Assembly (NCBI RefSeq): GCF_026625645.1
Contig: NZ_CP113056.1
Location: 248,001-312,000 of the forward strand
Direction: 5' to 3'
Source of the DNA: Ancylobacter sp. SL191
Lineage (GTDB): Bacteria; Pseudomonadota; Alphaproteobacteria; Rhizobiales; Xanthobacteraceae
DNA: 64,000 nt
Part shown: piece by piece, positions 28,226 to 44,513 of the stretch
Layout of the letters: each line of letters begins with the position of its first letter
Numbering within the stretch: position 1 is the first letter of the stretch
Translations under genes and position numbers: made by a program
Notes under the pieces: model-generated
Seen by the model: only the letters and a program-made list of their open reading frames with translations
What the model was told of the DNA's origin: nothing
Database searches by the model: none

Positions 28226-28951
28226 ATGGGTGTCGTCATCAATTGCGACATGGGCGAGGGGTTCGGCCTGTATCGCTGCGGCGACGATGCCGGCATCATG
28301 CCGCATATCAATATCGGTAACGTCGCCTGCGGTTTCCATGCCTCCGACCCGATGGTGATGCGCGAGACGGTGCGTCTGGCTGTCGCGAATGGTGTGGCGG
28401 TGGGCGCGCACCCGTCCTTTCCGGACCTGCAGGGCTTTGGCCGTCGCGACATGGCGATGACGCGGGAGGAACTCGCTGCCTGCGTCCTCTACCAGATCGG
28501 CGCGCTGAAGGCGTTCCTGGACGATGCCGGCCTGAAGCTCAATCATGTGAAGCCGCACGGTGCGCTCTACGGCGCCGCGATGCGCCGCGAAGAGGTGGCG
28601 CAGGCCGTGGCCGACGCCGCCCTGGTTTATGGCGTCCCGGTGATCGGCATGGCCGGCACGCTGCACGAAGAAGTCTATCGCAGCCGAGGCCTCGCCTTCG
28701 TCTCGGAATACTATGCCGATCTCGACTACGATTCCGCGGGCGCGCTGCTGATCACCCGCGCGCATGCGGCGCGCGATCCCGTGGAGGCGGCGCGGCGGGC
28801 GGTGCGGATGCTGACGGACGGCAAAGCGACCACCATCGACGGCCGTGACTTCGACATGAAGGCCGATACGATTTGCATCCACTCCGACACGCCGAACGCG
28901 GTGGAGTTGGCGCGCGTCTTGAAAGAGTCGGTGCGGCCTTGGCTTGCCTGA
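28226..28951 (+). CDS. pxpA: PxpA / LamB-YcsF family protein (5-oxoprolinase subunit A)
   Basis: A 241-residue LamB/YcsF protein, the subunit that together with PxpB and PxpC forms bacterial 5-oxoprolinase. Family motifs are complete: INCDMGEGFGLYRCGDDAG, GNVACGFHASDP, GAHPSFPDLQGFGRRDM, LNHVKPHGALYG and ALLITRAHAA. A GGAG lies before the ATG. Unlike E. coli ybgJKL-ybgL clusters, it is split from pxpB/pxpC by the regulator and lies on the opposite strand. Its association with a biotin carboxylase and carrier suggests a lactam substrate activated by carboxylation; that is inference. Confidence 0.92.
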   Translation: MGVVINCDMGEGFGLYRCGDDAGIMPHINIGNVACGFHASDPMVMRETVRLAVANGVAVGAHPSFPDLQGFGRRDMAMTREELAACVLYQIGALKAFLDDAGLKLNHVKPHGALYGAAMRREEVAQAVADAALVYGVPVIGMAGTLHEEVYRSRGLAFVSEYYADLDYDSAGALLITRAHAARDPVEAARRAVRMLTDGKATTIDGRDFDMKADTICIHSDTPNAVELARVLKESVRPWLA

Positions 28952-29069
28952 CCCCATCCTCACCTGCGCGTCGCGCCCAGGGCGCGGCGGCGGCGTGCGG
29001 GAGCCGTGCCTGTTGAACCCACCGCGGCGCGTCCGGAAGACGTCCGCATTTGGATCGGAGGAGCGTGAC

Positions 29070-30029
29070 ATGCGTGCCAGCTACTCGACCAATCAGGCGG
29101 CGCCGATGCAGAGGCGCCAGTTCTGGCAGACGGCCGTCTCCAGCACATATTTTCCGCTCGATCTGCGGTTCGCCTCCGGAGACACTTTCACCGGCAGCCT
29201 CGGCGCCTGGTCGCTGGGACCGATCTCCGTCTCGCGCAACGTGTCCGACGGGCTGCTCTATCGCCGTCATGAGCGCCACCTGGTCGCCGAACGCGAGGAA
29301 AGCTATCTCATCACTGTCCCCGAACTGGCCGAGATCCGTTTCGAGCAGGACGGGCGGCAAGTGCAGTGCCGGCCGGGTGCCTTCCTGATCGAGCGCAGCC
29401 ATCTGCCCTATGAGTTCAGCCACAGCGATCCGGCCGCGCTCTGGGTGATGAAGGTGCCGAGCGCGGTGCTGCGGGCCCGCATTGCCCGGCCGGAGCGCCT
29501 TGCCACGCTTCAGTTCGACGCCAGCCGCGCCGTGGGCGCCATGTTCGTCGATATGCTGCGCCTGACCGGGGCGCGCATTGATGAGATGGACGAACCAGCC
29601 CGCGCGCTGCTTGGCAAGCAGCTCGTCGATCTGCTCGCCATGGCGATCGAGGCGGACGAACGGGTGCTCGCCGGGAACTCCTCGACGGTGCGCAACGCTC
29701 ATCTGCACCGCTGCGAGCATTTCATTCGCACGCGGCTCGGCGACATGCGGCTGTCGCCGCAACTGGTGGCCGAAGGTTGCGGCATCTCCGTGCGCTATTT
29801 GCACCAGATCTTCGAGGCCGAGGGCATTACCGTCGGCGCCTATATCCGCAACCAGCGGCTGCTCGCCAGCGACGCGATGCTGCGCGACCCGCATTGCCGC
29901 AAGTCGATTTCCGAAATTGCCTATGAATGGGGCTTCGGCGACCAGGCTCAGTTCAGTCGCAATTACCGCGCCCGCTTCGGCTGCACGCCGAGCGAGGCGC
30001 GTGCCGTTTCCCGTTCTCCCGCAAACTGA
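29070..30029 (+). CDS. AraC family transcriptional regulator
   Basis: A 319-residue regulator. The N-terminal half is a cupin-like sensing domain of the AraC_binding_2 type (GAWSLGPISVSRN, ESYLITVPELAE, RPGAFLIERSHLPYEF). The C-terminal half is the double helix-turn-helix: LVAEGCGISVRYLHQIFEAEG, then SISEIAYEWGFGDQAQFSRNYRARFGCTPSEAR. ATG 29070 has GGAGGAG upstream; an in-frame extension to 28944 lacks one. It lies between pxpA and the aminotransferase and probably activates the downstream catabolic genes. Confidence 0.92.
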   Translation: MRASYSTNQAAPMQRRQFWQTAVSSTYFPLDLRFASGDTFTGSLGAWSLGPISVSRNVSDGLLYRRHERHLVAEREESYLITVPELAEIRFEQDGRQVQCRPGAFLIERSHLPYEFSHSDPAALWVMKVPSAVLRARIARPERLATLQFDASRAVGAMFVDMLRLTGARIDEMDEPARALLGKQLVDLLAMAIEADERVLAGNSSTVRNAHLHRCEHFIRTRLGDMRLSPQLVAEGCGISVRYLHQIFEAEGITVGAYIRNQRLLASDAMLRDPHCRKSISEIAYEWGFGDQAQFSRNYRARFGCTPSEARAVSRSPAN

Positions 30030-30072
30030 TCGCGGGAGCCCATCGTCTCCGTCCTGCCCGAAGGTTCCGAGC

Positions 30073-31452
30073 ATGCTGTCGAACTCGCTGCACAGTCTGG
30101 ACGTCGCCCATCACATTCATCCGGTCACCAATCTGCGCCGGCATGAACGCCAGGGGCCGATCGTCATCGACCGCGGCGCGGGCATCTATGTCTATGACGA
30201 CGAGGGCCGCGAATATCTCGAGGCCATGGCGGGGTTGTGGAGCGTCGGTGTCGGCTTCGGCGAGCCTCGCCTTGTCGCCGCGGCGACAAGGCAGCTGGAG
30301 AAGCTGCCCTATTACCATGTGTTCTCGCAAAAAGCGCATGCGCCCTCGGCGCTGCTCGCCACCAAGCTGGCAGAGATCGGTCCCGCGGGGCTCGATCGCG
30401 TCTTCTTCACCAATTCCGGCGGCGAGGCCAACGACACCGTCATCAAGTTCGTCTGGTATTACAACAACGCGCTGGGCCGGCCGGAGAAGAAGAAGTTCAT
30501 CTCGCGCGAAGGCGCCTATCACGGCATCACCATTGCCGCCGCGAGCCTCACCGGGCTCGCTGGAAACCAGAAGGGCTTCGACCTGCCGCTGCCCTTCGCT
30601 CGGCACGTATCGCGCCCACACTATTACCGTAACGGTCTGCCGGGGGAGAGCGAGGCCGCCTTCGTGGAGCGGCTTGGCCAGGAACTCGAGGACATGATCC
30701 TCGCGGAGGGACCGGAGACGGTCGCCGCCTTCATCGGCGAGCCGCTGATGGGCGCGGGCGGGGTCATCGTACCGCCCGCGGGATATTGGCAGAAGGTACA
30801 GGAGATCTGCCGGAAGTATGATGTCCTGGTCATCGCCGATGAAGTGATCAACGGCTTCGGCCGGCTCGGCACGATGTTCGGCTGCGAAGCGCTTGGCATC
30901 GCGCCGGACATTCTTGTCTGCTCCAAGCAGATCACTTCCTCCTACCAGCCGCTCGCCGCCATCCTGATGAAGGACGACATCTTCCAGCCCATCGCGGATT
31001 ATTCCGAGAAGCTCGGCGTGTTCGGTCATGGCTACACGACGGGGGCTCATCCGGTCGCGACGGCCGTGGCGCTGGAGAACCTCGCCATCATCGAGGAGCG
31101 CGGCCTCGTCGCCCGCGCCGCCGCCATGGGCGAGTATATGCGCGCCGGCCTTGCCCGCTTCGCCGACCATCCGCTGGTGGGCGAGGTGCGCGGCATGGGC
31201 CTCATCGCCGCGGTGGAGCTGGTGGCGGACAAGGCGACCAAAGCGCGGTTCGACCCGGTCGGCAAGGTCGGGCTGCGGCTGTTCGACCGCGCGCACGATC
31301 ACGGCCTGATCATCCGCGCCATCGGCGACTCGATTGCCTTCTGCCCGCCGATGATCATCACCGAGGCGGAGATCGACGAGTTGTTGCGCCGGTTCACGCT
31401 CACGCTCGACGACATCACCAGCTGGGTCAACGCCGGCATGCCGGACGCCTGA
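30073..31452 (+). CDS. Class III (omega) aminotransferase
   Basis: A 459-residue PLP enzyme that moves the amino group from an omega-amino acid or diamine to a keto acid. It carries VFFTNSGGEANDTVIK, SREGAYHGITIAAASLTG, the cofactor Asp in LVIADEVINGFGRLG, and the PLP lysine in CSKQITSSYQPLAA. The closest familiar types are putrescine/beta-alanine/6-aminohexanoate:pyruvate aminotransferases. GAAGG lies 8 nt before ATG 30073. Its place before an ATP-dependent ring-opening enzyme pair suggests it deaminates the omega-amino acid released from a lactam; the exact substrate cannot be read. Confidence 0.92.
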   Translation: MLSNSLHSLDVAHHIHPVTNLRRHERQGPIVIDRGAGIYVYDDEGREYLEAMAGLWSVGVGFGEPRLVAAATRQLEKLPYYHVFSQKAHAPSALLATKLAEIGPAGLDRVFFTNSGGEANDTVIKFVWYYNNALGRPEKKKFISREGAYHGITIAAASLTGLAGNQKGFDLPLPFARHVSRPHYYRNGLPGESEAAFVERLGQELEDMILAEGPETVAAFIGEPLMGAGGVIVPPAGYWQKVQEICRKYDVLVIADEVINGFGRLGTMFGCEALGIAPDILVCSKQITSSYQPLAAILMKDDIFQPIADYSEKLGVFGHGYTTGAHPVATAVALENLAIIEERGLVARAAAMGEYMRAGLARFADHPLVGEVRGMGLIAAVELVADKATKARFDPVGKVGLRLFDRAHDHGLIIRAIGDSIAFCPPMIITEAEIDELLRRFTLTLDDITSWVNAGMPDA

Positions 31453-31840: not shown

Positions 31841-33865
31841 GTGCAGAATCTCCGCGTGGCCGTCGACGTCGGCGGCACCTTCACCGACATCTGCATCATG
31901 GATGAGGCGACCGGCCTCATCCGTATCGAGAAGACGTCCTCCACCCGCGATCCCATCGACGGGATCATGAGCGGTGTCGAGAAAGCCGGTATCGACCTTT
32001 CGCAGGTCGCGCTGTTCTCGCATGGCACCACGGTGGCCACCAATGCGCTGATCACCCGCCGACTGCCCCGCGCCGCCGTGGTGTCGACCAAGGGCTTTCG
32101 CGACGTCATCGAGATCCGCCGCGCCAACAAGGAAGACCTCTGGGACGTCTACAAGGACGTGGTGCCACCCTATGTGCCGCGCCGCGACCGGCTCACCGTG
32201 CCCGAGCGTATCGACGCGGCCGGACGCATCGTCGAGCCGCTGGACGAGGACGCCGCCCGCGATGTCGCCCGCATCCTGAAGAAGCGCGGCGTCGCCACCA
32301 TCGCCGTGTGCTTCATGAACGCCTATCTCAACGGCGCCAACGAGCAGCGCATGCGCGAGATACTGAAGGAGGCGATGCCGGATATTCCGGTCTCCATCTC
32401 ATCGCAGGTGCTGCCCGAAATCTTCGAGCACGAGCGCTTTTCCACGACCGTGGCGAACGCCGTCGTCAGCCCCGTGGTGGTCGACTACACGACAAGGCTC
32501 GGCGAGCGTCTGGCCGATGGCGGCTACACCCGCGACCTCCTGCTGCTGCACACCGGCGGCGGCGTGATGACGCCAGCCAGCGTGAAGGATTTTGCCGCCC
32601 GCCTCGCCGGATCGGGCATCGCGGCGGGGGCCATCGCCAGCCGCTACATCGCCGGTCTGTGCGGTTTCCCCCACTCCATCGGCCTCGATATGGGGGGCAC
32701 CTCCACCGACGTGTCGCTCGCCTATAATGGCCAGTCGCGCGTCACCAAGGACTGGCATATCGAGTTCGGTTACCCGATCCGCTTTTCCTCCATCGAGGTG
32801 CTCACCATCGGCGCCGGTGGCGGCTCGCTGGCCTGGACCGATCCCGCCGGCGGCCTGCGCAATGGCCCCCAGTCGGCGGGCGCGTTTCCCGGTCCTGCCT
32901 GCTATGGCAACGGCAACACGCAGCCCACCAACACCGACGCCAATGTCACGCTCGGCCGCCTCGGCACCTCGCTGGCCGGCGGCAAGGTGCAGCTCGATCC
33001 GGAACTCGCCCGCCATTCGGTGGAGGAAGGCGTCGCCAAGCCGTTCGGCCTTGGCTTGCACGAGGCCGCGGACGCGATCGTCCGGGTCGCCAATGCCAAC
33101 ATGTCGGATGCGGTGCGGCTGATCTCGATCTCGCGCGGCTACGACCCGCGCGATTTTGCCCTCGTCGCCTTTGGCGGCGCCGGTGCGCTGCACGGGGTCG
33201 ATGTCGCCCGCGAACTCGCCATTCCCGTGGTGATCGTGCCGCCCAATCCCGGTGTCACCTCGGCCCTGGGTTGTCTGCTGGTCGACATGCAGCACGATTT
33301 CTCGCAAAGCTGCATGGTCGCCGCCGATGAGGCCGACCCGGCCGCCATCGAGGCCCAGTTCGCCGCGCTGGAGCGCGAAGCGATGGAGCGGCTGACGCAT
33401 GAGGGCGTCACTGAAGCCGACATCGTACTGCAGCGCTCCATCGACATGATGTATCGCGGCCAGTGGCGATCCCTTGCGGTCAATGCGCCGCGCCCGATCG
33501 GCGCCATTGCCGATCTGGTCGACCACTTCCACGCCGAACATAAGCGTGAATACAACTTCCGCCGTGACGACGCGCCGGTGAGCTTCTTCCGCCTCAATCT
33601 CAAGGCGATCGGCGTCGTGCCCAAGGCAGAGCTGGCCGTGCATACGCCCACCGGCGCCACACCCCTGCCCTCCTCCCACCGCCGCGTCTGGTTCGACGGC
33701 GAGGGTCTCGACACGCCGGTCTACGACCGCGACGAACTGCCCTGCGGTTTCGTCTTCGAGGGGCCGGCCATCGTCGAGCAGCTCGATTCCACCACCGTCG
33801 TCCCGCCGGGCGCGCGCGCCGAAGTCGACAAGTTCCTCAACATCATCATCCGTGTGAAGGGCTGA
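31841..33865 (+). CDS. hyuA: Hydantoinase/oxoprolinase subunit A (ATP-dependent amide/lactam hydrolase)
   Basis: A 674-residue ATP-binding subunit of the N-methylhydantoinase/5-oxoprolinase/acetone-carboxylase superfamily. The ASKHA-type phosphate loop VAVDVGGTFTDICIMD opens the protein; further motifs are FSHGTTVATNALITRR, GLDMGGTSTDVSL, TIGAGGGSLAW and FGGAGALHG. GTG 31841 is chosen because AAAGGAAG lies 8 nt upstream; ATG 31796 is the alternative. hyuB follows 4 nt later. Caprolactamase, 5-oxoprolinase and N-methylhydantoinase all have this design: ATP-driven opening of a cyclic amide. The neighbouring omega-aminotransferase favours a simple lactam. Confidence 0.92.
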   Translation: MQNLRVAVDVGGTFTDICIMDEATGLIRIEKTSSTRDPIDGIMSGVEKAGIDLSQVALFSHGTTVATNALITRRLPRAAVVSTKGFRDVIEIRRANKEDLWDVYKDVVPPYVPRRDRLTVPERIDAAGRIVEPLDEDAARDVARILKKRGVATIAVCFMNAYLNGANEQRMREILKEAMPDIPVSISSQVLPEIFEHERFSTTVANAVVSPVVVDYTTRLGERLADGGYTRDLLLLHTGGGVMTPASVKDFAARLAGSGIAAGAIASRYIAGLCGFPHSIGLDMGGTSTDVSLAYNGQSRVTKDWHIEFGYPIRFSSIEVLTIGAGGGSLAWTDPAGGLRNGPQSAGAFPGPACYGNGNTQPTNTDANVTLGRLGTSLAGGKVQLDPELARHSVEEGVAKPFGLGLHEAADAIVRVANANMSDAVRLISISRGYDPRDFALVAFGGAGALHGVDVARELAIPVVIVPPNPGVTSALGCLLVDMQHDFSQSCMVAADEADPAAIEAQFAALEREAMERLTHEGVTEADIVLQRSIDMMYRGQWRSLAVNAPRPIGAIADLVDHFHAEHKREYNFRRDDAPVSFFRLNLKAIGVVPKAELAVHTPTGATPLPSSHRRVWFDGEGLDTPVYDRDELPCGFVFEGPAIVEQLDSTTVVPPGARAEVDKFLNIIIRVKG

Positions 33866-33869
33866 GACG

Positions 33870-35819
33870 ATGGCCGAGCTCGACCCCGTGACCTTCGAGG
33901 TCCTCAAGAACTCCTTCATCACCAGCGTCGACCAGATGGGCGAGCAGATCCTGCGGACCTGCTACTCGTTCGTGATCTACAATCACGACTTTTCCAGCGC
34001 CCTGCACGACGCGAACGGCGAATGCGCCGCCCAAGGCAATGCGGACATCGCCGTGCATGTCGGCACGCTGCACTTCACCTGCAAGGAAGTGATGCGCCAC
34101 TTCGCAGGCGACATGCACGAGGGCGACGTCTACGCGATCAACGACCCCTATGCCGGCGGCACGCATTTCTCCGATGTGCGCCTCATTCGGCCGATATTCG
34201 CCGACGGCAAGATCATCGCCTTCTCGCAGTCCAACGGCCACTGGTCGGATGTTGGCGGCTCGGTGCCCGGCTCGTTCGACGTCTCCGCCAAGGAGATGTT
34301 CAAGGAAGGGCTGCGCATCACCCCGGTGCGGCTGTTCGACAAAGGCCGCTTCGTCAAGGACGTGGCGCACCTCATCGCCTCCAACACCCGCGATCCCGCC
34401 TCGATCATCGGCGACATCCAGGCGCAGGCCGAAGCGACCGCCGTGTGCCAGCGCGAGATCCTGCGCCTCGTCGGCAAGTACGGTCGCGAAACCGTCGAGA
34501 CCGGCTTGTCCGCTGTGCAGGACTATGTCGAGCGCTCGGCACGCGCGCGCATTGCCGCGCTGCCGGACGGCGAGTGGGAGACGGTCGACTTCATCGACCG
34601 TGATCCGGCGGGCGGTGAGGGGATGATCCCGATCCACATCAAGCTCACCATCAAGGGCGACAAGGCGATCTATGATTTCACCGGCAGCCACCCGGTGATC
34701 GGCTCCATCTACAATTCCGCCTTCGGCACCACCTTCTCGGCAGTGGCGGCGGGGATGAAGACCTTCTTCCCTGATCTGCCGCTCAATTCCGGCTTCTACC
34801 GCTGTTTCGAGATCATCGTTCCCGAGGGTTCGATCGTCGACGCGCAATGGCCGGTCGCGGTGACGGGCTTCCTGATGCCGTTCGAGAAGATCATGAACTC
34901 GATCTACGAGATGTGGTCGAAGCTCATGCCCGAGCGGGCGCTCGCCTGCGCGTTCAACCTCGAATATCTGCTCACCGGCGGGCGGGATGCGCGCACGCCC
35001 GACAAGCCGATCTTCATGTTCTACGACTGGCTGCCCGGCGGCTGGGGCGGGCGCAACGGTAAGGACGGCGCCAATGTCACGACCGCGTGCTTCGGCACCG
35101 GCATGATGGCCCAGCCGGTCGAGGGACAGGAACGGGCCAACCCGATCCTCACCACCGAATGCGAGATCCTCAAGGATTCGCCCGGCCCCGGCAAATGGCG
35201 CGGCGGCGCCGGCGTGGTGAAGACCTCGCTGATGCTGGCGGCCGAGAAGACGGTCATCTCCTACATCTGCGACCGCGAACGCGCGGTGGTCTGGGGCATC
35301 GAAGGCGGCCTGCCCTCCATGCCGCACGGGCTCACGCTGAAGCGCGCGGGTGCGGACACGGAGGAGCGGCTCGGCTCGATCTTCTCCGATGTGCCGATCG
35401 GCGAGGGCGACGTGTTCTCCCGTCCCACGGCCGGCGGCGGCGGCTTCGGCGATCCGCTCGATCGCGAACCGGCGCGGGTGCTGGAGGACGTGAAGGACGA
35501 CTACGTCTCGGTCGAACGGGCCGCCAAGGATTATGGCGTCGTCATCCGCACCATCGATGCCGAGCTGTGCGAGTACGAGGTGGACGCGCCGGCGACCGAG
35601 GGCTTGCGGGCCACGCAGCGGAGCATGCGCGTCGACGAAGCGCGCATTGACCCGGAAGCGGTGGCCGCGCGCTACCGGGCCGGCGAAATCGACGCGATGG
35701 ACGCCATCCGCCGCCACGCGGTGATCCTCGACTGGGGCACCGGTGCGCTGCTGCCGGAGTCCACGCGCCAGTTCCGCGAGGTCTTCGAACGCCGTTCGCT
35801 CGCCAATTGGAGACATTGA
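33870..35819 (+). CDS. hyuB: Hydantoinase/oxoprolinase subunit B
   Basis: A 649-residue partner of HyuA that holds the hydrolysis site. HyuB motifs are clear: LDPVTFEVLKNSFITSVDQMGEQILRT, AQGNADIAVHVGTLHF, YAINDPYAGGTHFSDVRLIRP, GHWSDVGGSVPGSF, DFTGSHPVIGSIYN and the late PGPGKWRGGAGVVK with AGGGGFGDPLDR. The C-terminal region after about 560 runs on to NWRH and includes an unusual DYVSVERAAKDYGVVI segment typical of the family's C-domain. It is translationally close to hyuA (4 nt gap), so the two form an obligate pair. Confidence 0.93.
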   Translation: MAELDPVTFEVLKNSFITSVDQMGEQILRTCYSFVIYNHDFSSALHDANGECAAQGNADIAVHVGTLHFTCKEVMRHFAGDMHEGDVYAINDPYAGGTHFSDVRLIRPIFADGKIIAFSQSNGHWSDVGGSVPGSFDVSAKEMFKEGLRITPVRLFDKGRFVKDVAHLIASNTRDPASIIGDIQAQAEATAVCQREILRLVGKYGRETVETGLSAVQDYVERSARARIAALPDGEWETVDFIDRDPAGGEGMIPIHIKLTIKGDKAIYDFTGSHPVIGSIYNSAFGTTFSAVAAGMKTFFPDLPLNSGFYRCFEIIVPEGSIVDAQWPVAVTGFLMPFEKIMNSIYEMWSKLMPERALACAFNLEYLLTGGRDARTPDKPIFMFYDWLPGGWGGRNGKDGANVTTACFGTGMMAQPVEGQERANPILTTECEILKDSPGPGKWRGGAGVVKTSLMLAAEKTVISYICDRERAVVWGIEGGLPSMPHGLTLKRAGADTEERLGSIFSDVPIGEGDVFSRPTAGGGGFGDPLDREPARVLEDVKDDYVSVERAAKDYGVVIRTIDAELCEYEVDAPATEGLRATQRSMRVDEARIDPEAVAARYRAGEIDAMDAIRRHAVILDWGTGALLPESTRQFREVFERRSLANWRH

Positions 35820-35947: not shown

Positions 35948-37051
35948 ATGTTCACCGCCACCACCCGCCATCCGGTCCTTTCGCGCCTGAGGCGCCGGAC
36001 CCTCGCCGGCGCCGCGCTTCTCGCTTTCGCCGCCACCTCGCTCTCCCCGGCAGCGGCGGAGACCAAGTGGTTCCCGATGAAGATCTATGACGCCTCGTCG
36101 GGGACGCCGAAGGCGGCGGAGTACACGCCGCTCGCAAAGGCCGCTAAGCCCTACAATATCTGTGTGCTGTTCCCGCACATGAAGGACAGCTTCTGGGTCG
36201 CGGTTGCCTATGGCATCGTCAAGCAGGCCGAGACCTCGAACGTGAACATGAATCTCTACGAGGCCGGCGGCTACGAGAACCTGCCCAAGCAACTCTCGCA
36301 GTTCGACGACTGCATGGCCGCGAAGGCCGATGCCATCATCGTCGGTGCCATCTCCGGCGCCGGGCTGATGAAGAAGTTCGAGGAGGCCAAGGCCAAGGGC
36401 ATACCGGTGGTCGGCGTCACCAACCCGCTGCCGCCCAACGCGCTGCCGGCCGCCAACTATGTCGACTTCGTCGCCATGGGCGAGGTCACCGGCGAGGGTC
36501 TGCTCGCGCAGACCAAGCCCGGCGAAAAGCTGAACATCGTCACCTTCCCTGGCCCGGCCGGCTCGGGCTGGGCCGAATCCTTCAACGAGGGCTTCAAGAA
36601 GGCCGTGGCGAAGAACCCCGACGCCAAGATTCTCGGTGAGAAGTTCGGCGATTCCGGCGTGGCCGTGCAGCTTCAGCTGATCCAGGACGCGCTTCAGGCC
36701 TATCCGAGCATCAACGTCATCTGGGGCACGGCGCCGACCGCCGAAGCCGCCATCGGCGCCGTTGCCGAGGCCGGTCGCGCCGACATCAAGATCGTCTCGT
36801 CTTACGAGAACCAGGCCATGCTCGACGCGCTGAACCGTGGCGACATCCTGGCCTTCGCCACGCAGTACCCGGTGGGTGAAGGGGCGATCGCGATCGACCA
36901 GGCGATCCGGTTGATCGAGAAGAAGCCGGTGATGTCGCTGGTGCAACCGGTCGCCGCGGTGATCGACAAGACGACCGTTCCGAACCTGCAGATGGATCTC
37001 GTGCTCGCACCGGCAAGCTGGAGCCCGGTCTATTCCGTCAAGGCGAAATGA
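35948..37051 (+). CDS. ABC importer periplasmic substrate-binding protein (TorT/ribose-binding type)
   Basis: A 367-residue periplasmic binding protein. The signal peptide includes RRRTLAGAALLAFAATSLSPAAA, cleaved near residue 36. The mature protein starts with WFPMKIYD and PYNICVLFPHMKDSFWVAVAYG, a layout like TorT, followed by the periplasmic-binding-protein fold (AKADAIIVGAISGAG, GIPVVGVTNPLP, FGDSGVAVQLQLIQDALQAYP). AGAGGAAAAAG precedes ATG 35948. It is the first gene of the importer, and a strong hairpin after it probably keeps its mRNA level above that of the membrane parts. The ligand is unknown; context suggests a cyclic nitrogen compound rather than a sugar. Confidence 0.9.
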   Translation: MFTATTRHPVLSRLRRRTLAGAALLAFAATSLSPAAAETKWFPMKIYDASSGTPKAAEYTPLAKAAKPYNICVLFPHMKDSFWVAVAYGIVKQAETSNVNMNLYEAGGYENLPKQLSQFDDCMAAKADAIIVGAISGAGLMKKFEEAKAKGIPVVGVTNPLPPNALPAANYVDFVAMGEVTGEGLLAQTKPGEKLNIVTFPGPAGSGWAESFNEGFKKAVAKNPDAKILGEKFGDSGVAVQLQLIQDALQAYPSINVIWGTAPTAEAAIGAVAEAGRADIKIVSSYENQAMLDALNRGDILAFATQYPVGEGAIAIDQAIRLIEKKPVMSLVQPVAAVIDKTTVPNLQMDLVLAPASWSPVYSVKAK

Positions 37052-37112: not shown

Positions 37113-37195
37113 AGGCCGTGCCTCGCAGGAGCTGACGAACGCCGGAAAACGCGAATGGCACGGCCTCTGCAGCGCAGGCGGCCGAAGGAGAGCCG

Positions 37196-38746
37196 ATGGA
37201 CACCAGCGCAGAACTCCCGCGGGCGGCCGCTGCCGGTGCGTCACTGCTGGAGCTGAAGGGCATATCGAAGCGCTTCACCGGCGTGCGAGCCCTCGATCAT
37301 GTCAGCCTTGATGTGCGCGCGGGCGAATTGCAGGTGCTGTTCGGCGAGAACGGTGCCGGCAAATCGACACTGATCAACATCATCGCGGGAACCTTCCCGC
37401 CGGACGAGGGCAGCATCCACTTCGACGGCGCGGAGATCCGCCACCTCTCGCCGCAGCGGGCGCGCGCGATCGGCATCAGCCCGGTGTTCCAGGAGTTCTC
37501 ACTGGTGCCGAGCCTCACCGTCGAAGAGAACCTGTTCCTCGGCCGCGAGGCGTCGATCGGCGGCGTGCTGCGGGCTGGGGCAATGCGCAAGAAGGCCCGC
37601 GCGTTGATCGACGAACTGGGCTTCGACCTCCATCCGGGCCGGCGCGTTGACGACCTGTCGCGGGCGCATCAGCAGATGACGGAGATCGCCAAGGCCCTGC
37701 TCGGCAAGGTGCGCCTGCTCATCCTTGACGAGCCGACCGCCTCGCTGACCGATCGCGAGACCGGCCGCCTGTTCGAGCTGATCGCTCGGCTGAAGGCGCA
37801 GAATGTCGGCATCATCTACGTCTCCCACCGCATGCGGGAAATCCGGGCGCTGGCCGACCGGGTGACGGTGCTGCGCGACGGGCGGCACATCCGCACCCTC
37901 GACGCCGCGCGGGTGACCGATGGGGAGCTCGTCGAACTGATGACCGGCCGACGGATCGACGTGCTGTTCCCCTCCATTCCGCATGCGCCAGCCGAGGTGA
38001 AGGTCGATGTTGAGGGTCTTACCCTCGCCGACGGCTCGGTGCGCGACGTGAACTTCTATGCGCGCGCCGGCGAGATCACCGGCATCGCCGGCCTTGTCGG
38101 CTGCGGCAAGTCGGAACTGGTGCGGGCGATCTATGGTCTCGAGCCGGTGGTCGGCGGCATGGTGCGCATCGACGGCACGCCTTACGAGGCCGCGACGCCG
38201 CACGCGAGCCTCCAGCGCGGCGTGGCCTATTTCCCGGCCAACCGGGTCACGGAAGGTCTCGCCCTGTCGCGTCCCATCCGTGAGAACACCTCGATGACGG
38301 CGCTCGACCTGCCCCGGCTCGCCCGGTTCGGCATCATGCGCCGGGGCCAGGAGCGCAGTCTCGTGGCAGCCGCCATGGAGCGGCTGAAGCTGCGCCCGCC
38401 CAATATCGAGCGGTCCGCCGGCGCGCTGTCCGGCGGCAACCGCCAGAAGGTGATGCTGGGCCGGGCCCTGACCCGCGACCTCCAAGTCTTCCTGTTCGAC
38501 GAGCCGAGCGTCGGCATCGATGTCGGGGCCAAGCTCGAGGTCTATGAGTTCATGAAGCAACTGGTCGAGGCGGGGGCGGCGGTCATTGTGGTCTCGTCGG
38601 AGCTGCCGGAGGTGCTGGCACTCTCCAACCGCCTCTACGTCATGCATCACGGCCGGATCGCCGCCGAACTGGCGGGCGCGGAAAAGACCGAACAGAACGT
38701 GCTGGCCTCCTTCTTCAAGGACCATCTGGCGACGGAGGCGGCATGA
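37196..38746 (+). CDS. Ribose-type ABC transporter ATP-binding protein (two nucleotide-binding domains)
   Basis: A 516-residue fused double ATPase powering the importer. Domain 1 has Walker A GENGAGKST (residues 50-58), a degenerate signature SRAHQQMTEIAKAL, and Walker B LLILDEPTAS. Domain 2 has Walker A GLVGCGKSE, signature LSGGNRQKVMLGRAL, and Walker B VFLFDEPSVGID. Domain 2 thus keeps an intact signature and Walker B, while its P-loop ends in Ser-Glu. The stop overlaps the first permease start (ATGA). The architecture matches RbsA/MglA/XylG proteins. Confidence 0.93.
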   Translation: MDTSAELPRAAAAGASLLELKGISKRFTGVRALDHVSLDVRAGELQVLFGENGAGKSTLINIIAGTFPPDEGSIHFDGAEIRHLSPQRARAIGISPVFQEFSLVPSLTVEENLFLGREASIGGVLRAGAMRKKARALIDELGFDLHPGRRVDDLSRAHQQMTEIAKALLGKVRLLILDEPTASLTDRETGRLFELIARLKAQNVGIIYVSHRMREIRALADRVTVLRDGRHIRTLDAARVTDGELVELMTGRRIDVLFPSIPHAPAEVKVDVEGLTLADGSVRDVNFYARAGEITGIAGLVGCGKSELVRAIYGLEPVVGGMVRIDGTPYEAATPHASLQRGVAYFPANRVTEGLALSRPIRENTSMTALDLPRLARFGIMRRGQERSLVAAAMERLKLRPPNIERSAGALSGGNRQKVMLGRALTRDLQVFLFDEPSVGIDVGAKLEVYEFMKQLVEAGAAVIVVSSELPEVLALSNRLYVMHHGRIAAELAGAEKTEQNVLASFFKDHLATEAA

Positions 38747-39780
38747 GCGCGCAGGCCTTCTCCCACGCGCCCGGTGGAGACGCGCGGCCCGGCATCGCCG
38801 CTGCCTTTGGCCGCCGCGTTCTCGGCCGCATCGGCTTCCTGCCGGCACTGCTCGTGCTGGTCGTCGCCGGCATGTCGGCCCTCGACCCGCAATTCTACGG
38901 GCCGATCAATATCCTCAACATTCTCCGCAATGCCGCGCTGCTCACCATCATCGCCTGCGGACAGGCCATGGTGATTATCGTCGGCGGCTTCGACCTCTCG
39001 GTCGGCGCGGTGGTGGCGCTGGCAAGCGTGGTCACCGCCAAGGCCATGGCCATGGCAGCCCTCGCCTTCCCCGGCAACGACGCGCTGATCATCGCCTGCG
39101 GCGTCATCGCCGGGCTCGGCAGCGGCGCGGTTGTAGGCCTGATCAATGGCCTGTGCGTCGCGCGGCTGAAAGTGTCCGGCTTCGTGGTCACGCTCGGCAC
39201 CATGTCGGCCACCGCCGGTGTCGCCTTGATGATCACCTCCGGCATCCCGGTTTACGGCATGCCGCCGAGCTTCGTGAAGGAATTTGGTCGCGCCCAGTTT
39301 CTTGGCCTGCCGACAACGATCTACATCGCCCTGGCGGTGCTGCTGATCATGGTGCTGGTGCAGCGCCGCACACTGTTCGGCCGCTATGTCTATGCCATTG
39401 GCGGCAATGCCGATGCGGCGGTGGTGTCAGGCGTGCGCATCAAGCGCCATATCGTCGGGGCCTACATCCTGTCGGGGGTACTGGCGGCGCTTACCGGCCT
39501 CCTGCTCACGGCGCAGGTGGGCTCTGGTCAGGCGAGCTTCGGCGGCGATCGCATGATGCTGCAATCCATCGCCGCGGCGGTGATCGGCGGCGTCAGCCTG
39601 CGCGGCGGCATGGGACGGGTCGAGATCGTCGCGGTCAGCGCGCTGTTCCTCACCATCCTCGGCAATGCGCTGAACCTGCTCCACATCGATTCGCGTCTGC
39701 AGCCGGTGTTCCTCGGCGTCATCATGGTGGCGGCGGTGGCGCTGGACGAGCTCGGCCAGCGGAGGAAAGCCCTTGTCTGA
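38743..39780 (+). CDS. Ribose-type ABC transporter permease
   Basis: A 345-residue BPD_transp_2 (RbsC-like) inner-membrane permease with about nine hydrophobic helices. Family features include IIACGQAMVIIVGGFDLSVGAVVALASV, VSGFVVTLGTMSATAG, YAIGGNADAAVVSGVRI and the C-terminal QSIAAAVIGGVSLRGGMG. Its ATG overlaps the ATPase stop, and its end overlaps the second permease by 8 nt. It probably forms a heterodimeric channel with that second permease. Confidence 0.92.
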   Translation: MSAQAFSHAPGGDARPGIAAAFGRRVLGRIGFLPALLVLVVAGMSALDPQFYGPINILNILRNAALLTIIACGQAMVIIVGGFDLSVGAVVALASVVTAKAMAMAALAFPGNDALIIACGVIAGLGSGAVVGLINGLCVARLKVSGFVVTLGTMSATAGVALMITSGIPVYGMPPSFVKEFGRAQFLGLPTTIYIALAVLLIMVLVQRRTLFGRYVYAIGGNADAAVVSGVRIKRHIVGAYILSGVLAALTGLLLTAQVGSGQASFGGDRMMLQSIAAAVIGGVSLRGGMGRVEIVAVSALFLTILGNALNLLHIDSRLQPVFLGVIMVAAVALDELGQRRKALV

Positions 39781-40786
39781 TCTCGATCTGTCGGCCGCAC
39801 CGGCGACCGCCTCCGGGGCCCGGCGCCTCGCCGTCCAGGCCCTGTTGTGGCAGGCGGCAGTGCCTATCGCCCTCGTCCTGCTGCTGCTCGGCTTCGCAGC
39901 CGTGGAGCCGACAGTGCTGACCCCGGGCAATCTGGTGAACATTGTCCAGCAGGCGAGCTATCTCGCCTTGTTCGCCATGGCGCAGACGGTGGTGATCCTC
40001 ACCCGCGGCTTTGACCTCGCGCTCGGGCCCACCGTCTCCATGGTCAGCGTGGGCGCCGCGCTTGCCATGGCCGGCACGGTGGCCAGCGGCTATGATCCGG
40101 TAGCGGTGCTGCTCATCGGCCTCGCCGCCGGCTTCGCACTCGGCGCCGCCTGCGGCCTGTTCAACGGCCTTGTCGTCGCCTGTCTCCGTGTCAGCCCCTT
40201 TGTGGCGACGCTCGGCAGCTACAACATCGCCATCGGCATCGCCACCACGCTGTCGGCCGGGCGACCGGTGCAGGGCGTGCCCGACCTGTTCTCGCACCTG
40301 CTTTACGGCGCCAGCGTGTTCGGCGTGCCCGCGGCTGTGCTCATCACACTCATTGTCGGCGCCACCCTCCATCTCGTGTTGACCCGCACCGTCTACGGCC
40401 GCGAGCTCTACATCATCGGCACCAATCCACGCGCAGCGACGGTAGCTGGCCTGCCGGTCAAGCGGCTGCTGGTCGCCACCTATGTGCTGTGCTCGACTCT
40501 GGCGGCGCTGGGCGCGCTGATGATGACCGCACGCACCGGTTCGGGCGAACCCAATCTAGGCGGCTCGCTGTCGCTGCAGGCCATCGCCGCTGCCGTGGTG
40601 GGCGGCACCAGCCTTGCCGGCGGGCGTGGCGGCGTCGGCACGGCGGTAGTCGGCGCGCTGTTCGTGACCATCCTGTCCAACGGCATGAATCTCACGCGGA
40701 TCGACGGCTATGTGCAGATGGTCGTGCTCGGCGCCATCGTCATCATTGGCGTGGTCCTCGACCGGTTGCGGCTGGAGCGACGCTGA
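39773..40786 (+). CDS. Ribose-type ABC transporter permease
   Basis: A 337-residue RbsC-like permease, the second of the pair. It shows MAQTVVILTRGFDLALGPTVSMVSVG, VSPFVATLGSYNIAIGIA, YIIGTNPRAATVAGLPV and AIAAAVVGGTSLAGGRGGVG, with the expected helix pattern. It begins 8 nt inside the previous gene, and its TGA overlaps the ATG of the molybdenum hydroxylase FAD subunit by one base. This is direct evidence that transport and oxidation are encoded in one transcript. Confidence 0.92.
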   Translation: MSDLDLSAAPATASGARRLAVQALLWQAAVPIALVLLLLGFAAVEPTVLTPGNLVNIVQQASYLALFAMAQTVVILTRGFDLALGPTVSMVSVGAALAMAGTVASGYDPVAVLLIGLAAGFALGAACGLFNGLVVACLRVSPFVATLGSYNIAIGIATTLSAGRPVQGVPDLFSHLLYGASVFGVPAAVLITLIVGATLHLVLTRTVYGRELYIIGTNPRAATVAGLPVKRLLVATYVLCSTLAALGALMMTARTGSGEPNLGGSLSLQAIAAAVVGGTSLAGGRGGVGTAVVGALFVTILSNGMNLTRIDGYVQMVVLGAIVIIGVVLDRLRLERR

Positions 40787-41667
40787 TGCGCGAGAATGGT
40801 CGCGACATGGTGCCGAACAGGGCGGCGTTCTTTCCCTCGCTCTATGTGGCTTCCTCGCTCGATGACGCTCTCGCCGCCCTCGCCGAGCGCGGTGTGGAGG
40901 GTTCGCCCTTCGCGGGCGGCACCTGGATCATGCGGGCGCCGCTGCGCCACGAGCGGCCAGGGCGGGCCTATGTCGGCCTCGGCCGCGTCGCGGAACTGAG
41001 CCGGATCGAGAAGGAGGACGGCCATATCCGCCTCGGTACAGGTGTCACCCATGCCCACCTCGCGGAAAGCCTGCGTGACCTGCCGGATATGCAGGTGCTC
41101 GCAGAGGCGGCCGGCCGCTCCGCTAACCCGGCGGTGCGCCGGATGGCGACGCTGGGCGGCAATCTGTGCACAGCCAGCTTCTCGGCCGCCGACCTCGTCC
41201 CGGCACTGCTGTGTCTCGACGCCGAGGTCGACATCGCCTCGCCCGCAGGCGTGGAGCGCCTGCCGCTGGAGCGGTTCCTCGCCCGTCGCCCTTCGCTTGA
41301 AGCCGGGCGGTTGCTGACGAGTGTGCGAATCCCACGCTCGCTCGGCCGCAGCGCGCATGCCCGCCTGCCGCTTCGCAAGGCGGGCGACTACCCGACCGCC
41401 ATCGTCAGCCTGTCGGTGGAGCGTGAGGCGGCCGGGCGCGTCACCAAGGCGCGTGTCGCCGTCGGCGCCGTCGAGGCTGTTGCCCGGCGCTGGCCGCGCC
41501 TCGAAGCCGCGCTCATCGGCGCTCCGCTCGACGCCGCCTCGGCCCACCGCGCGGCGACGGAACTTGCCGGTGAATTCCACGGGCGCGACGGCATCGATGC
41601 GCCCGGCTGGTACCGCATCAGCGTGCTGCCGACCCTCGTCCGACGGGCGGTCGCGGCGCTTCACTGA
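40786..41667 (+). CDS. Molybdenum hydroxylase medium (FAD-binding) subunit
   Basis: A 293-residue CoxM/XdhB-type flavoprotein that passes electrons from the Fe-S subunit to an acceptor. FAD-site motifs are PFAGGTWIM (usual AGGTDLM) near residue 43 and MATLGGNLCTASFSAADLVPALL (family TIGGNI-type loop). The C-terminal CODH_FAD domain follows (RKAGDYPTAIVSLSVE, VAVGAVEAVARRWP). ATG 40786 overlaps the permease stop. With the next two genes it forms a complete three-subunit hydroxylase. Confidence 0.92.
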   Translation: MRENGRDMVPNRAAFFPSLYVASSLDDALAALAERGVEGSPFAGGTWIMRAPLRHERPGRAYVGLGRVAELSRIEKEDGHIRLGTGVTHAHLAESLRDLPDMQVLAEAAGRSANPAVRRMATLGGNLCTASFSAADLVPALLCLDAEVDIASPAGVERLPLERFLARRPSLEAGRLLTSVRIPRSLGRSAHARLPLRKAGDYPTAIVSLSVEREAAGRVTKARVAVGAVEAVARRWPRLEAALIGAPLDAASAHRAATELAGEFHGRDGIDAPGWYRISVLPTLVRRAVAALH

Positions 41668-41685
41668 TCAACACGGGAGGTCCTG

Positions 41686-42159
41686 ATGCCGATCGACATG
41701 ACAGTCAATGGTGAGGCGAGACGTACCGCCTGCGATCCGCTGACCCCGCTCATCGATGTGCTGCGGGACGAGTTCCACCTCACGGGCGCGAAGCCCGTGT
41801 GCCGCGAAGGCTTCTGCGGCGCCTGCACGGTGCTGGTGGATGGCACGCCGACGACGTCCTGCCTGACCCCGGCCGCTCTGCTCGAGGGGCGCGATGTCGT
41901 CACCATCGAAGGCATGTCGGCCGGCGACCGCCTCAACGCCGTCCAAGCGCAGCTGGACCTGAACGACGCCGTTCAGTGCGGCATGTGCTTTCCCGGCATG
42001 GTGGTGACCCTGACCCATTTTCTCGATCACAGCCCCCGGCCGAGCCGCGATGACGTTCGCGCCGCGCTCACCGGCAACATCTGCCGCTGTACCGGCTATG
42101 AGCGCATCGTCGAGGCGGCGCTGGCCGTCGCCGGCGCCCGCATGGAGATGCCCCGGTGA
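41686..42159 (+). CDS. Molybdenum hydroxylase small (2Fe-2S) subunit
   Basis: A 157-residue electron-transfer subunit with two [2Fe-2S] clusters. The plant-ferredoxin-type cluster is in CREGFCGACTVLVDG plus TTSC; the second uses QCGMCFPGM and NICRCTGYERIVEAA. The spacing is that of CoxS/XdhC-type subunits. GGGAGG lies before the ATG, and its end overlaps the large-subunit GTG by 4 nt. Confidence 0.95.
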   Translation: MPIDMTVNGEARRTACDPLTPLIDVLRDEFHLTGAKPVCREGFCGACTVLVDGTPTTSCLTPAALLEGRDVVTIEGMSAGDRLNAVQAQLDLNDAVQCGMCFPGMVVTLTHFLDHSPRPSRDDVRAALTGNICRCTGYERIVEAALAVAGARMEMPR

Positions 42160-44513
42160 CCGTCGATGCCGTGATGGAGTTTCGCCGCCGCGATGCCCGC
42201 GACAAGCTGACCGGGCGCACGCGCTACACCATTGATCGCGCGGCTCCGGGCATGCTGCACGCCGCCGTACTGCGCGCACCGGTCGCGTCGGGGCGGCTCG
42301 TGAGGCTCGACACCTCGAAGGCCGCCGCGCTGCCGGGCGTGCGTGCCCTGGCGACCGCCGCCGACGCGCCGGGTCGCGTGGGAATCGGCATCGCCGATCA
42401 TTCGCTCTTCGCCGAGGATCGCGTGCGCTATGTCGGCGAACCGCTTGCCGCCGTGGCCGCGGACACACCGGAGCAGGCACTGGCGGCGCTTGCGGCGATC
42501 GAGGTCGAGATCGAGCCGCTGCCGGCCGTCGTCACCATGGAGGAGGCGCTGGCACCCGATGCCCCGCTCGTCCACCCGCACTGGCAGGACTATGAGATTC
42601 TGTTTGAAGGCGGCGCCCGCGCCGGCAATGTCGCCTGGGAGGCGACGGTCGTGCGCGGTGATGTCGACGCCGCCTTCGCCCGGCCGGATGTGACGATCAT
42701 CGAGAGCACATTCCGCGTTGGCCGGCAGAACCACATGGCCTTCGAGCTGCGGGCAGCCGTGGCGCGCTATGAGGAAGGCCGCTTCCATATCGAGACATCC
42801 ACGCAGGTGCCGTGGACCGTGCGCATCGCGACCGCGCGATTTCTCGGCGTGCCCGCCTCGCATGTGCGGGTCACCGTACCGCCGGTGGGCGGAGCCTTCG
42901 GCCTCAAATTCGACATTGCCATCGAACCCTTCGCCGCGCTTCTGGCGAAGAAGAGCGGCCGGTCGGTGCGGCTGGCCAATTCGCGCGAAGAGGAAATGCT
43001 CACCTGCCTGTTCCGCGAGAATGCAGAGATCCGCATTCGTTCCGCGGTGACGCGGGAGGGCGAGATCGCCGGTCGCGAGGCGGTGGTGCTGATGGATTGC
43101 GGCGCCCATGGCGGCGAGCAGATCTTCCTGACCACCATGACCGCCCACACGCTGGGCGGCAATTACCGGCTGGGTGCGGTCCGCCTCGCCTCCCGTGCCG
43201 TCTACACCAACACTCCGCCCAACGGCGCCTTCCGGGCCTGCAACGGGGTCTACAACACCTTCGCGCTGGAACGGCACACCGACGAGATCGCCGCCGCCCT
43301 CGGCATGGACCCGCTCGAGTTCCGCCGGCGCAATGTGCTCGGCGACGGCGATCTCGGCGCCACCGGCCAGGTTTTCGAAGGTGAGGTGCTGCGCCCGATG
43401 CTGGCGCGCATGGACGCCCTGCGCGCGCGCCACGAGCCGGCTCGCGCCGAGGATGGGCGCCTTTACGGGCGGGCGACGACCGTCGGCACCTGGTTCGTGT
43501 TCACGGGGCCGTCGGCGGCAACGGTCAACATGAATGCCGATGGCAGCGCCACACTCGTCACCTCCGGTGTCGAGATCGGCTCCGGCTCGATGATGCAGAG
43601 CCTGCCGCAGATCGTCGCCGGAGCCCTCGGCATCCGCCCGGAGGATGTGGTGGTTCGTCAGGCCGACACCGATGCCTCGGGCTACGATGTCGGCGTCGGC
43701 GGCGGCAGGCAGACCGTGTCGCTCGGCGCCGCCAGTCTCGCGGCGGCGGAAGACGTCCGGGGAAAGCTGTTGGCCGTCGCGGCGCAGATGCTGGATGCCA
43801 CCCCGGACGACTTGGTGATGGGCAATGGACGGATCGAGATCGCCGGGCCCAATGGAACCGGCTTCAGCATTGCCGAGGTGACCGCACGGGCGCAGGCCCT
43901 GTCGGGCCCGGTCGGCGGTACCGGTAGTTCCACCCGCAAGGGTGTACCCGCCCTGCCGGGCTGCGTCGCCGGCCACTTCATCGACGCACTCGATATTCCG
44001 GTCTTCGCTGTCCATGACTGCGATGTCGCGGTGGATCCCGATACCGGCCATGTCGAGGTGTTGAGCTATCGCGTCGTGCAGGATGTGGGGCGGGCGCTCA
44101 ACCGCAGCGCCATTGGCGGCCAGATCCAGGGTGGCGTCGTGCAGGGGCTGGGCTATGCGCTGCACGAGGAGGTGTCGATCGACGCCTGCGGCCGTGTCCG
44201 CCAGGCGGGCTTCGAGACCTACCGCGTGCCGCTCGCCGGCGACGTGGTGCCGGTCGAGATCGACCTGTTCGAGGGCGCGCCATCGCTTGGACCGCTGGGC
44301 GTCAAGGGTGCAGGCGAGGTGCCGATCCTCAATGTAGGGGCGACGGTGGCCTGCGCGGTGGCAAACGCCACGGGCCTTCGGGTGCAGGAGCTCCCGCTGA
44401 CGCCGCCGCGCGTCCTCGCCCTGCTGCTCGGCCGCGAACCGGAACTCACCTTCCCCCATATCCTGCAAGCGTGGGTGGACAATCTGGTGCTGCCCCACAG
44501 CGGAAGGGAATGA
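42156..44513 (+). CDS. Molybdenum hydroxylase large (molybdopterin) subunit
   Basis: A 785-residue xanthine-dehydrogenase-family catalytic subunit that hydroxylates a carbon next to a ring nitrogen, or an aldehyde, using water oxygen. The N-terminal hammerhead domain (KLTGRTRYTID, GRLVRLDTSKAAALPGV, VRYVGEPLAAVAAD) precedes the Mo domain with PVGGAFGLKFD, PPNGAFRACNG and the catalytic Glu in GVKGAGEVPILN. The loop AFRACNG is not the AYxCSFR of true CO dehydrogenase, so CO oxidation is unlikely. It ends the plus-strand catabolic array. The substrate is unknown; an N-heterocycle or imine fits the neighbours. Confidence 0.93.
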   Translation: MTVDAVMEFRRRDARDKLTGRTRYTIDRAAPGMLHAAVLRAPVASGRLVRLDTSKAAALPGVRALATAADAPGRVGIGIADHSLFAEDRVRYVGEPLAAVAADTPEQALAALAAIEVEIEPLPAVVTMEEALAPDAPLVHPHWQDYEILFEGGARAGNVAWEATVVRGDVDAAFARPDVTIIESTFRVGRQNHMAFELRAAVARYEEGRFHIETSTQVPWTVRIATARFLGVPASHVRVTVPPVGGAFGLKFDIAIEPFAALLAKKSGRSVRLANSREEEMLTCLFRENAEIRIRSAVTREGEIAGREAVVLMDCGAHGGEQIFLTTMTAHTLGGNYRLGAVRLASRAVYTNTPPNGAFRACNGVYNTFALERHTDEIAAALGMDPLEFRRRNVLGDGDLGATGQVFEGEVLRPMLARMDALRARHEPARAEDGRLYGRATTVGTWFVFTGPSAATVNMNADGSATLVTSGVEIGSGSMMQSLPQIVAGALGIRPEDVVVRQADTDASGYDVGVGGGRQTVSLGAASLAAAEDVRGKLLAVAAQMLDATPDDLVMGNGRIEIAGPNGTGFSIAEVTARAQALSGPVGGTGSSTRKGVPALPGCVAGHFIDALDIPVFAVHDCDVAVDPDTGHVEVLSYRVVQDVGRALNRSAIGGQIQGGVVQGLGYALHEEVSIDACGRVRQAGFETYRVPLAGDVVPVEIDLFEGAPSLGPLGVKGAGEVPILNVGATVACAVANATGLRVQELPLTPPRVLALLLGREPELTFPHILQAWVDNLVLPHSGRE

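Follow-up and report, generated by a model that had tools for sequence, protein, structure and literature searches.

A gene cluster of Ancylobacter sp. SL191 that may oxidize a cyclic nitrogen compound to a lactam, and the two kinds of lactam-opening system found beside its molybdenum hydroxylase family

We describe a gene cluster of the alphaproteobacterium Ancylobacter sp. SL191, whose 4.65-Mb genome is assembled in one contig, that brings together an importer, a three-subunit molybdenum (Mo) hydroxylase and two unrelated systems of the kinds that open cyclic amides. The cluster lies in a stretch of 64,000 nucleotides (contig NZ_CP113056.1, positions 248,001 to 312,000), referred to here as the window, and its genes are collected in Table 1, with starts picked by eye. 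A preliminary description, made from the sequence letters alone, had placed PxpA, an AraC-type regulator, an omega-aminotransferase, HyuA and HyuB, an ATP-binding cassette (ABC) importer and the Mo hydroxylase in this order on one strand, and the profile matches agree on the named genes, their order and their strand (28226-44513, plus). The overlapping stops and starts reported from the ATPase through the hydroxylase are present at four junctions, the fifth being an 18-bp gap (spacings from the ATPase to the Mo subunit, 37196-44513, of -4, -8, -1, +18 and -4 bp). Larger gaps occur upstream, namely 388 bp before HyuA and 128 and 144 bp flanking the gene for the substrate-binding protein, so that a single transcript over the whole stretch is not assured. 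The biotin system that was also mentioned is real and complete: two carboxyltransferase (CT) subunits, a biotin carboxylase and a biotin carboxyl carrier protein (BCCP) are all encoded on the minus strand (23518-27025), divergent from the genes for LysR and PxpA.

Table 1. Genes of the cluster and the adjoining biotin set, in window coordinates (scores in bits; model cut-offs in parentheses; ORF, open reading frame; FAD, flavin adenine dinucleotide)
Gene product	Position	Strand	Evidence
CT_A_B carboxyltransferase subunit	23518..24657 (ORF; start by eye about 24516)	-	PF02626, 303.7; TIGR00724, 275 (230.2)
CT_C_D carboxyltransferase subunit	24509..25408	-	PF02682, 126.5
Biotin carboxylase	25392..26783	-	PRK12833, 772.4 (686)
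BCCP, 79 aa, EVMKSF	26786..27025	-	PRK07051, 110.9 (87)
LysR regulator	27176..28138	+	profile match
PxpA (LamB/YcsF) lactam hydrolase	28226..28951	+	LamB_YcsF, 297.7; subfamily model, 273.8 (226)
AraC-type regulator	29070..30029	+	AraC_binding_2, HTH_18
Class III omega-aminotransferase, PRK06105 subfamily	30073..31452	+	NF004767, 754 (517)
HyuA, ATP-binding subunit of ATP-dependent lactamase/hydantoinase	31841..33865	+	profile matches
HyuB, hydrolytic subunit	33870..35819	+	profile match
TorT-like CUT2 substrate-binding protein	35948..37051	+	profile match
CUT2-type double ATPase	37196..38746	+	profile match
Permease 1	38743..39780	+	PF02653
Permease 2	39773..40786	+	PF02653
Mo hydroxylase, FAD subunit	40786..41667	+	PF00941, PF03450
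Mo hydroxylase, 2Fe-2S subunit	41686..42159	+	profile match
Mo hydroxylase, Mo-binding subunit	42156..44513	+	profile match; motifs GGxFG[LQ]KF, FR[AC]CNG, GAGEVPI

The Mo subunit belongs to a family whose genes lie close to an ATP-dependent cyclic-amide opener much more often than those of other Mo hydroxylases do. Searches with this subunit, each with a strict E-value limit, covered 397 genomes of the order, of which 11 have the family (SL191 included), then 385 of the class, which added three more, and 398 of the phylum, which added none; the three draws overlap, and one genome whose match has 40% identity (G800; G numbers denote genomes and L numbers loci of our comparison) was left out of the 14. 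In these 14 genomes we located all matches over set limits to MoCoBD_1, Hydantoinase_B and CT_A_B (140, 61 and 22, respectively). Members of the family have within 15 kb a HyuB in 7/14 cases, a CT in 10/14, either of the two in 12/14 and both in 5/14, compared to 5, 3, 8 and 0 among the 126 other Mo hydroxylases of the same genomes (12/14 vs 8/126, Fisher p = 1.4e-10, uncorrected for kinship). The window scores as HyuB only in this count, its CT being 18.2 kb away. The earlier proposal that the hydroxylase and an opener belong together thus stands, as does the notion of two alternative openers, in that the same Mo family occurs with either; what has changed is that the biotin/PxpA set is the commoner partner (a HyuB of the family found in the window is near in 5/14) and that PxpA is now assigned, as its probable partner, to the biotin set.

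The named genomes were also scanned with HyuB, the best 80 of 112 relatives being kept, and the best-matching loci were from Ancylobacter and a Xanthobacteraceae metagenome-assembled genome (MAG). The order AraC, HyuAB, importer and Mo hydroxylase is found again in Ancylobacter, Aureimonas, Jiella and many Bradyrhizobium loci, where the individual proteins are 47-94% identical; this recurrence exceeds chance. In six Bradyrhizobium loci (L027, L028, L030, L032, L035, L068) the Mo genes are present without the importer, and three (L014, L015, L033) lack both the importer and the Mo subunit. Both openers are present in many Bradyrhizobium, Ancylobacter and Aurantimonadaceae loci, and also in Aureimonas AU20 and G244, where the biotin set lies 8-9 kb beyond the first stretch. 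Five other genomes (L118-L122) carry PxpA, BCCP, biotin carboxylase, CT_C_D, CT_A_B, TorT, ATPase, one permease and the three Mo hydroxylase subunits in one run. A LysR gene was seen in three of the five, and neither HyuAB nor the tested aminotransferases gave a match in the 18-19 kb read. The same biotin-type run is found on plasmids of Diaphorobacter sp. HDW4B (Betaproteobacteria) and Sulfitobacter alexandrii, again with no HyuAB in the stretch read. On the other side are plasmids of R. tumorigenes and Rhizobium sp. TH2, which have HyuAB and the Mo genes and no match to PxpA, biotin carboxylase, BCCP or CT in 48 kb, and G120, with HyuAB, the Mo hydroxylase and its only CT 288 kb from the Mo gene. 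On a tree of 55 Mo-subunit rows the partner labels need 7 changes, against a least possible number of 3, the rows being related and the flanks limited. For this tree AU20 and G244 were labelled as having both openers and G768 as biotin, Diaphorobacter and S. alexandrii were added, and rows with short flanks (L022, L024, L044, L045, L046, L067), near-copies (L126, L127, L131) and short or off-frame rows (L124, L042) were dropped; the first tree, before relabelling, gave 7 changes too. One Mo family accompanied by either of two unrelated openers is what is predicted if the hydroxylase makes a lactam that the opener hydrolyses, and the simplest account is that the product of the Mo hydroxylase would be a lactam openable by either machine.

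The Mo subunits form a discrete family, the listed matches having either at least 67% or at most 40% identity. Three motifs, GGxFG[LQ]KF (GAGFGLKF in one row), FR[AC]CNG and GAGEVPI, are present in 57 of 58 aligned rows, some of which are near-copies; the 58th (L042) was read off frame and, once translated correctly, shows them as well. The catalytic base of the Mo hydroxylase family is the Glu of GAGEVPI, and the Glu of GGxFGxKE is the active-site Glu (E802) of xanthine dehydrogenase, a position at which 57 of the 58 rows (again all except the misread L042) have Phe. FR[AC]CNG is missing from four solved chains aligned with the Mo subunit. The nearest solved chain is 1rm6 (4-hydroxybenzoyl-CoA reductase, 313 bits; CoA, coenzyme A), and others nearby are 6-hydroxypseudooxynicotine dehydrogenase, a CoxL and quinoline 2-oxidoreductase. 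The window enzyme shares with the 4-hydroxybenzoyl-CoA reductase and xanthine dehydrogenase family the architecture of 2Fe-2S, FAD and Mo subunits and differs from it by the additional FR[AC]CNG motif; each of the 13 NCBIfam models listed for its Mo subunit gives a score below the cut-off. We therefore rejected xanthine dehydrogenase (384.5 vs an equivalog cut-off of 780, with Phe replacing the Glu of GGxFGxKE), the alpha subunit of 4-hydroxybenzoyl-CoA reductase (439.9 vs 994.55) and CO dehydrogenase (cut-offs failed), all three of which differ in their motifs. CT and Mo genes also adjoin elsewhere in the SL191 genome, at about 3.98 Mb (L135:6624-16395), where a PxpB-like gene over its cut-off and a CT_A_B gene stand beside two Mo subunits, which are closest to aerobic CO dehydrogenase models and under the cut-off.

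The first of the two openers, HyuAB, consists of Hydantoinase_A (N, core and C) and Hydantoinase_B domains in two adjoining genes, as found by profile search. It forms a discrete family as well, HyuB identity dropping from 54.7% to 35.5% with nothing between in the 40 listed plasmid records (925 had a match). Its nearest solved relative on the HyuA side is N-methylhydantoinase (458 bits), and an assignment as the caprolactamase CapAB was rejected, the scores being 491 and 307.4 bits vs a cut-off of 1000. Enzymes of the PxpA and HyuAB types open cyclic amides (PMC8453981, PMC13274462), and both CapAB and OplAB require bicarbonate (PMC8453981, PMC11033972). The metal-site residues D41, H99 and H124 of CapB are essential (PMC8453981), and D40, H99 and H124 of HyuB align with them; at the position of a fourth CapB residue, D101, the aligned chain has Leu 101 followed by Asp 102, and HyuB has Asp at 102.

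Relatives of HyuAB occur in other settings too. A second pair, whose HyuA is 33% identical, lies at about 240-244 kb of the SL191 genome, just upstream of the window (L136:8311-12165), and is preceded by a 613-aa ORF with matches to amino-acid-type ABC permease and ATPase. Loci of Methylobacterium, Chelatococcus and a Pseudoxanthobacter MAG (L093, L043, L047-L049, L051, L052, L056, L058, L069) have the same HyuAB followed by GntR and a branched-chain-type ABC importer, and add a class IV aminotransferase and a second HyuA (with HyuB where the stretch reaches); perhaps they represent a different pathway with the same opener. Members at 51-56% identity are carried by haloarchaeal plasmids (L100, L103, L104), two of the three loci being flanked by a Zn-dependent hydrolase and Xaa-Pro peptidases and one of them also by a creatininase.

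The second opener would combine the biotin set with PxpA, which passes its subfamily model. The presence of a biotin carboxylase and of a BCCP with the biotinyl Lys (EVMKSF) marks the set as a biotin-dependent carboxylase. Its CT subunits resemble, and score below the cut-offs of, both known relatives: the PxpB model gives 61.5 on CT_C_D (cut-off 145.55) and the PxpC model 227.5 on CT_A_B (cut-off 500), while the urea carboxylase equivalog, which describes one long chain (cut-off 1303.85), gives 246.4 and 103.7 on the CT subunits and 516.6 on the biotin carboxylase. CT_C_D thus scores 103.7 with the urea carboxylase model vs 61.5 with PxpB; its best PDB chains are urea carboxylase/amidolyase (53 bits) and YbgJ-type proteins (37-52), and the chains nearest to CT_A_B are YbgK and urea amidolyase. 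Compared to the 5-oxoprolinase PxpABC, the window has PxpA and CT-type relatives of PxpB and PxpC and adds biotin carboxylase and BCCP; compared to urea carboxylase, it has the biotin carboxylase, BCCP and both CT domains, as separate proteins beside PxpA. By analogy with urea carboxylase acting on urea, the biotin set could supply activation by N-carboxylation. Another PxpB-like gene of the SL191 genome is over its cut-off (180.1 vs 145.55), so the set in the window may be unneeded for housekeeping.

The importer is of the CUT2 type, and its substrate-binding protein passes one TorT model (NF008185, 289 vs 200) and fails another (TIGR02955, 212.6 vs 310). The segment FPHMKDx[YF]W is kept in 46/46 relatives; its TorT counterpart is YPHLKDSYW, residues that we take to form part of the trimethylamine N-oxide (TMAO) site, and this likeness would fit a small amine-like ligand. 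The substrate-binding protein of the biotin-type run L119 is close to PDB 4yhs (638 bits), a Bradyrhizobium protein. At L092, L095, L137 and L138, CUT2 substrate-binding proteins annotated as 'TMAO reductase system periplasmic protein TorT' stand beside their own ABC ATPase and permeases, and the annotation is likely a misannotation.

The aminotransferase is closest to PDB chains 6tb1 (650.6 bits) and 6g4b (647.9 bits), both of which represent the P. jessenii enzyme. Members of the PRK06105 subfamily (cut-off 517) are found near HyuAB, in varying placement, in the window (754), Ensifer (746), Aureimonas AU20 (743), Sulfitobacter (772) and Halomonas (696), whereas Rhodococcus has a gamma-aminobutyric acid (GABA) transaminase (582.6 vs 506.65) 6 kb from HyuA instead and a Natrialba locus has another class III aminotransferase 5 kb away. 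The PRK06105-type and GABA transaminases point to an omega-amino acid as the probable product of HyuAB. The preliminary description had made the aminotransferase a part of the pathway; it is not a fixed one. Relatives at 50% identity or more occur at 13/55 loci with the Mo hydroxylase and at 12/41 without it, in a table of 96 stretches of at least 18 kb that covers the stretch read only, so that absences can be false (there were 112 loci with matches, from which L131-L133 and 13 others shorter than 18 kb were omitted); the count of relatives does not include the class III aminotransferases of 29-31% identity (L034, L038, L059, L124). None of the tested aminotransferases matched in the seven biotin-only stretches. 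The aminotransferase thus goes with HyuAB and not with the hydroxylase.

Taken together, these genes suggest the following scheme. The TorT-like importer would take up a small nitrogen-containing ring, and the Mo hydroxylase would add oxygen at the C=N carbon adjoining the ring nitrogen, giving a lactam. One of two unrelated machines would then use ATP to open the lactam, yielding an amino acid: 1) HyuAB, with ATP and bicarbonate as in caprolactamase, or 2) the biotin carboxylase, BCCP and carboxyltransferase, which would N-carboxylate the lactam for hydrolysis by PxpA. Where present, the aminotransferase would remove the terminal amine. We lean slightly towards a catabolic unit of this kind, comprising import, ring oxidation to a lactam and ATP-driven opening by HyuAB or by the biotin set with PxpA; the sequence of hydroxylase, lactam and opener, which like the individual reactions is inferred, has in our estimate somewhat better than even chances. 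As to the substrate, a five-membered 1-pyrroline-type imine converted to a gamma-lactam and on to a GABA-type amino acid is a guess and should be regarded as doubtful. A gamma-lactam is favoured by the GABA transaminase of Rhodococcus, by a dehydrogenase annotated as succinate-semialdehyde dehydrogenase at the Halomonas locus and by 5-oxoproline being the substrate of PxpA, and the imine follows from the need of a Mo hydroxylase for an sp2 carbon; delta-lactams, hydantoins and aromatic nitrogen rings are possible alternative substrate classes.

Several observations weigh against this scheme or against parts of it. No opener of either kind lies within 15 kb of the Mo hydroxylases of G155 and G626, and the HyuB near those of G768 and G770 is of another family (at best 31% identical to the HyuB of the window; 33% to a second HyuB of Methylobacterium), which leaves the count of 12/14 as it is because both genomes have CT and which accounts for the 5/14 given above. 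The genomes of L118-L122 hold other Hydantoinase_B proteins elsewhere (1-13 each), which could act. The well-supported cases with HyuAB only are three, other candidates being short-flanked or having the biotin set further on, and most loci were fetched via HyuB and are related by descent. OplAB opens delta-valerolactam and hardly opens gamma-butyrolactam (PMC11033972), and a gamma-lactam consequently does not follow from homology. In Rhodococcus, the aldehyde dehydrogenase is below the succinate-semialdehyde cut-off (322 vs 646), and among the three annotated archaeal HyuAB loci two have a creatininase or Zn-dependent hydrolase close by, which is more like hydantoin chemistry. No imine-forming gene was recognized by eye among the ORF clusters common to at least four loci, a set of ORFs that was not searched with profiles. 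RidA, an imine deaminase, was considered as a recurrent partner and rejected, with matches in only 6 of 110 loci (L045, L095, L096, L099, L101, L105).

Among other explanations, the best surviving one places the Mo hydroxylase last, as an aldehyde oxidase: a lactam would be imported, opened by HyuAB or PxpA and transaminated to a semialdehyde, which the Mo enzyme would oxidize to a dicarboxylate. The Phe at the E802 position would agree with this, since aldehyde oxidoreductases have Phe there, and so would the aldehyde dehydrogenases carried by the Halomonas and Rhodococcus HyuAB loci that have no Mo enzyme in the stretch. We consider it unlikely, because an aldehyde oxidase acting after transamination should track the aminotransferase, and the Mo enzyme does not: the proportions with and without it are as given above, and in the seven biotin-only stretches, all of them with the Mo enzyme, none of the tested aminotransferases matched, though a transaminase elsewhere in the genome is possible. 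Next comes the explanation that two separate modules adjoin, one for 5-oxoproline or lactam salvage (PxpA with the biotin set, HyuAB and the aminotransferase) and the other an unrelated Mo hydroxylase with a sugar-type importer. Indeed 41 of the 96 stretches, most of them with HyuAB or the biotin set, lack the Mo subunit; the linkage measured against the 126 other Mo hydroxylases, the same gene run on plasmids of Alpha- and Betaproteobacteria and the other PxpB-like gene of SL191 make this explanation quite improbable. The weakest, in which an imidazole-type ring would be oxidized by the Mo enzyme, and the resulting hydantoin opened as a cyclic ureide by HyuAB and PxpA, draws on N-methylhydantoinase as the closest solved relative of HyuA, on the two archaeal loci and on the cytosine permease adjoining the Paracoccus and Halomonas relatives, and is to be doubted most, given that the window ORFs scanned (part of the window) include no carbamoyl hydrolase and that omega-amino acids are indicated by the subfamily of the aminotransferase and by the GABA transaminase of Rhodococcus.

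Oxidation of the ring to a lactam followed by ATP-dependent opening, which we prefer, is a variation on known chemistry. Pseudomonas jessenii uses the caprolactamase CapAB and an omega-transaminase for 6-aminohexanoate (PMC6061476); both systems have an ATP-dependent HyuA/HyuB-type lactamase and an omega-aminotransferase, whereas the window adds the Mo hydroxylase, the TorT-type importer and the biotin/PxpA set, and its HyuAB is far below the CapA and CapB models. The remaining parallel, drawn at the level of the described route, concerns Aromatoleum. There, oxidation by a Mo enzyme reportedly precedes a gamma-lactamase. Indoleacetate metabolism in this genus uses an ATP-dependent Hyd-type gamma-lactamase (PMC5214803), so that ring oxidation followed by such an enzyme is common to both routes; unlike the Aromatoleum route, the window cluster has no aromatic or CoA genes among its named genes. 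A search of open-licence literature found no description of the pathway, nor of a lactam opener that depends on biotin and accompanies a Mo hydroxylase. We tentatively propose, at clearly less than even chances, an undescribed cyclic-imine pathway, found on chromosomes and plasmids, in which a dedicated Mo hydroxylase would form a gamma-lactam and a system of biotin carboxylase, BCCP, CT and PxpA, able to replace HyuAB, would open it.

Directly after the Mo subunit, on the minus strand (44709-50275), are a PfkB kinase, a DUF4432 protein, a second CUT2 ATPase and two permeases, probably an unrelated sugar cluster. An Rfam scan of the window found no RNA feature above gathering scores inside the catabolic cluster; outside it are a SAM-alpha riboswitch (18608-18688, plus) and a bacterial small SRP RNA (8202-8300, minus), both unremarkable.

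If the proposed pathway is correct, proteins currently annotated as hydantoinase, 5-oxoprolinase, acetyl-CoA carboxylase, TorT and xanthine dehydrogenase would turn out to be parts of one pathway. It would also supply two candidate enzymes for the opening of gamma-lactams, for which no mild enzymatic cleavage was known to a 2023 paper (PMC11033972). The predicted mechanism, dependent on biotin and bicarbonate, would bear on how amides are activated by PxpA-type enzymes, and a biotin-dependent hydrolase would represent a second chemical solution to the problem of a very stable five-membered lactam.

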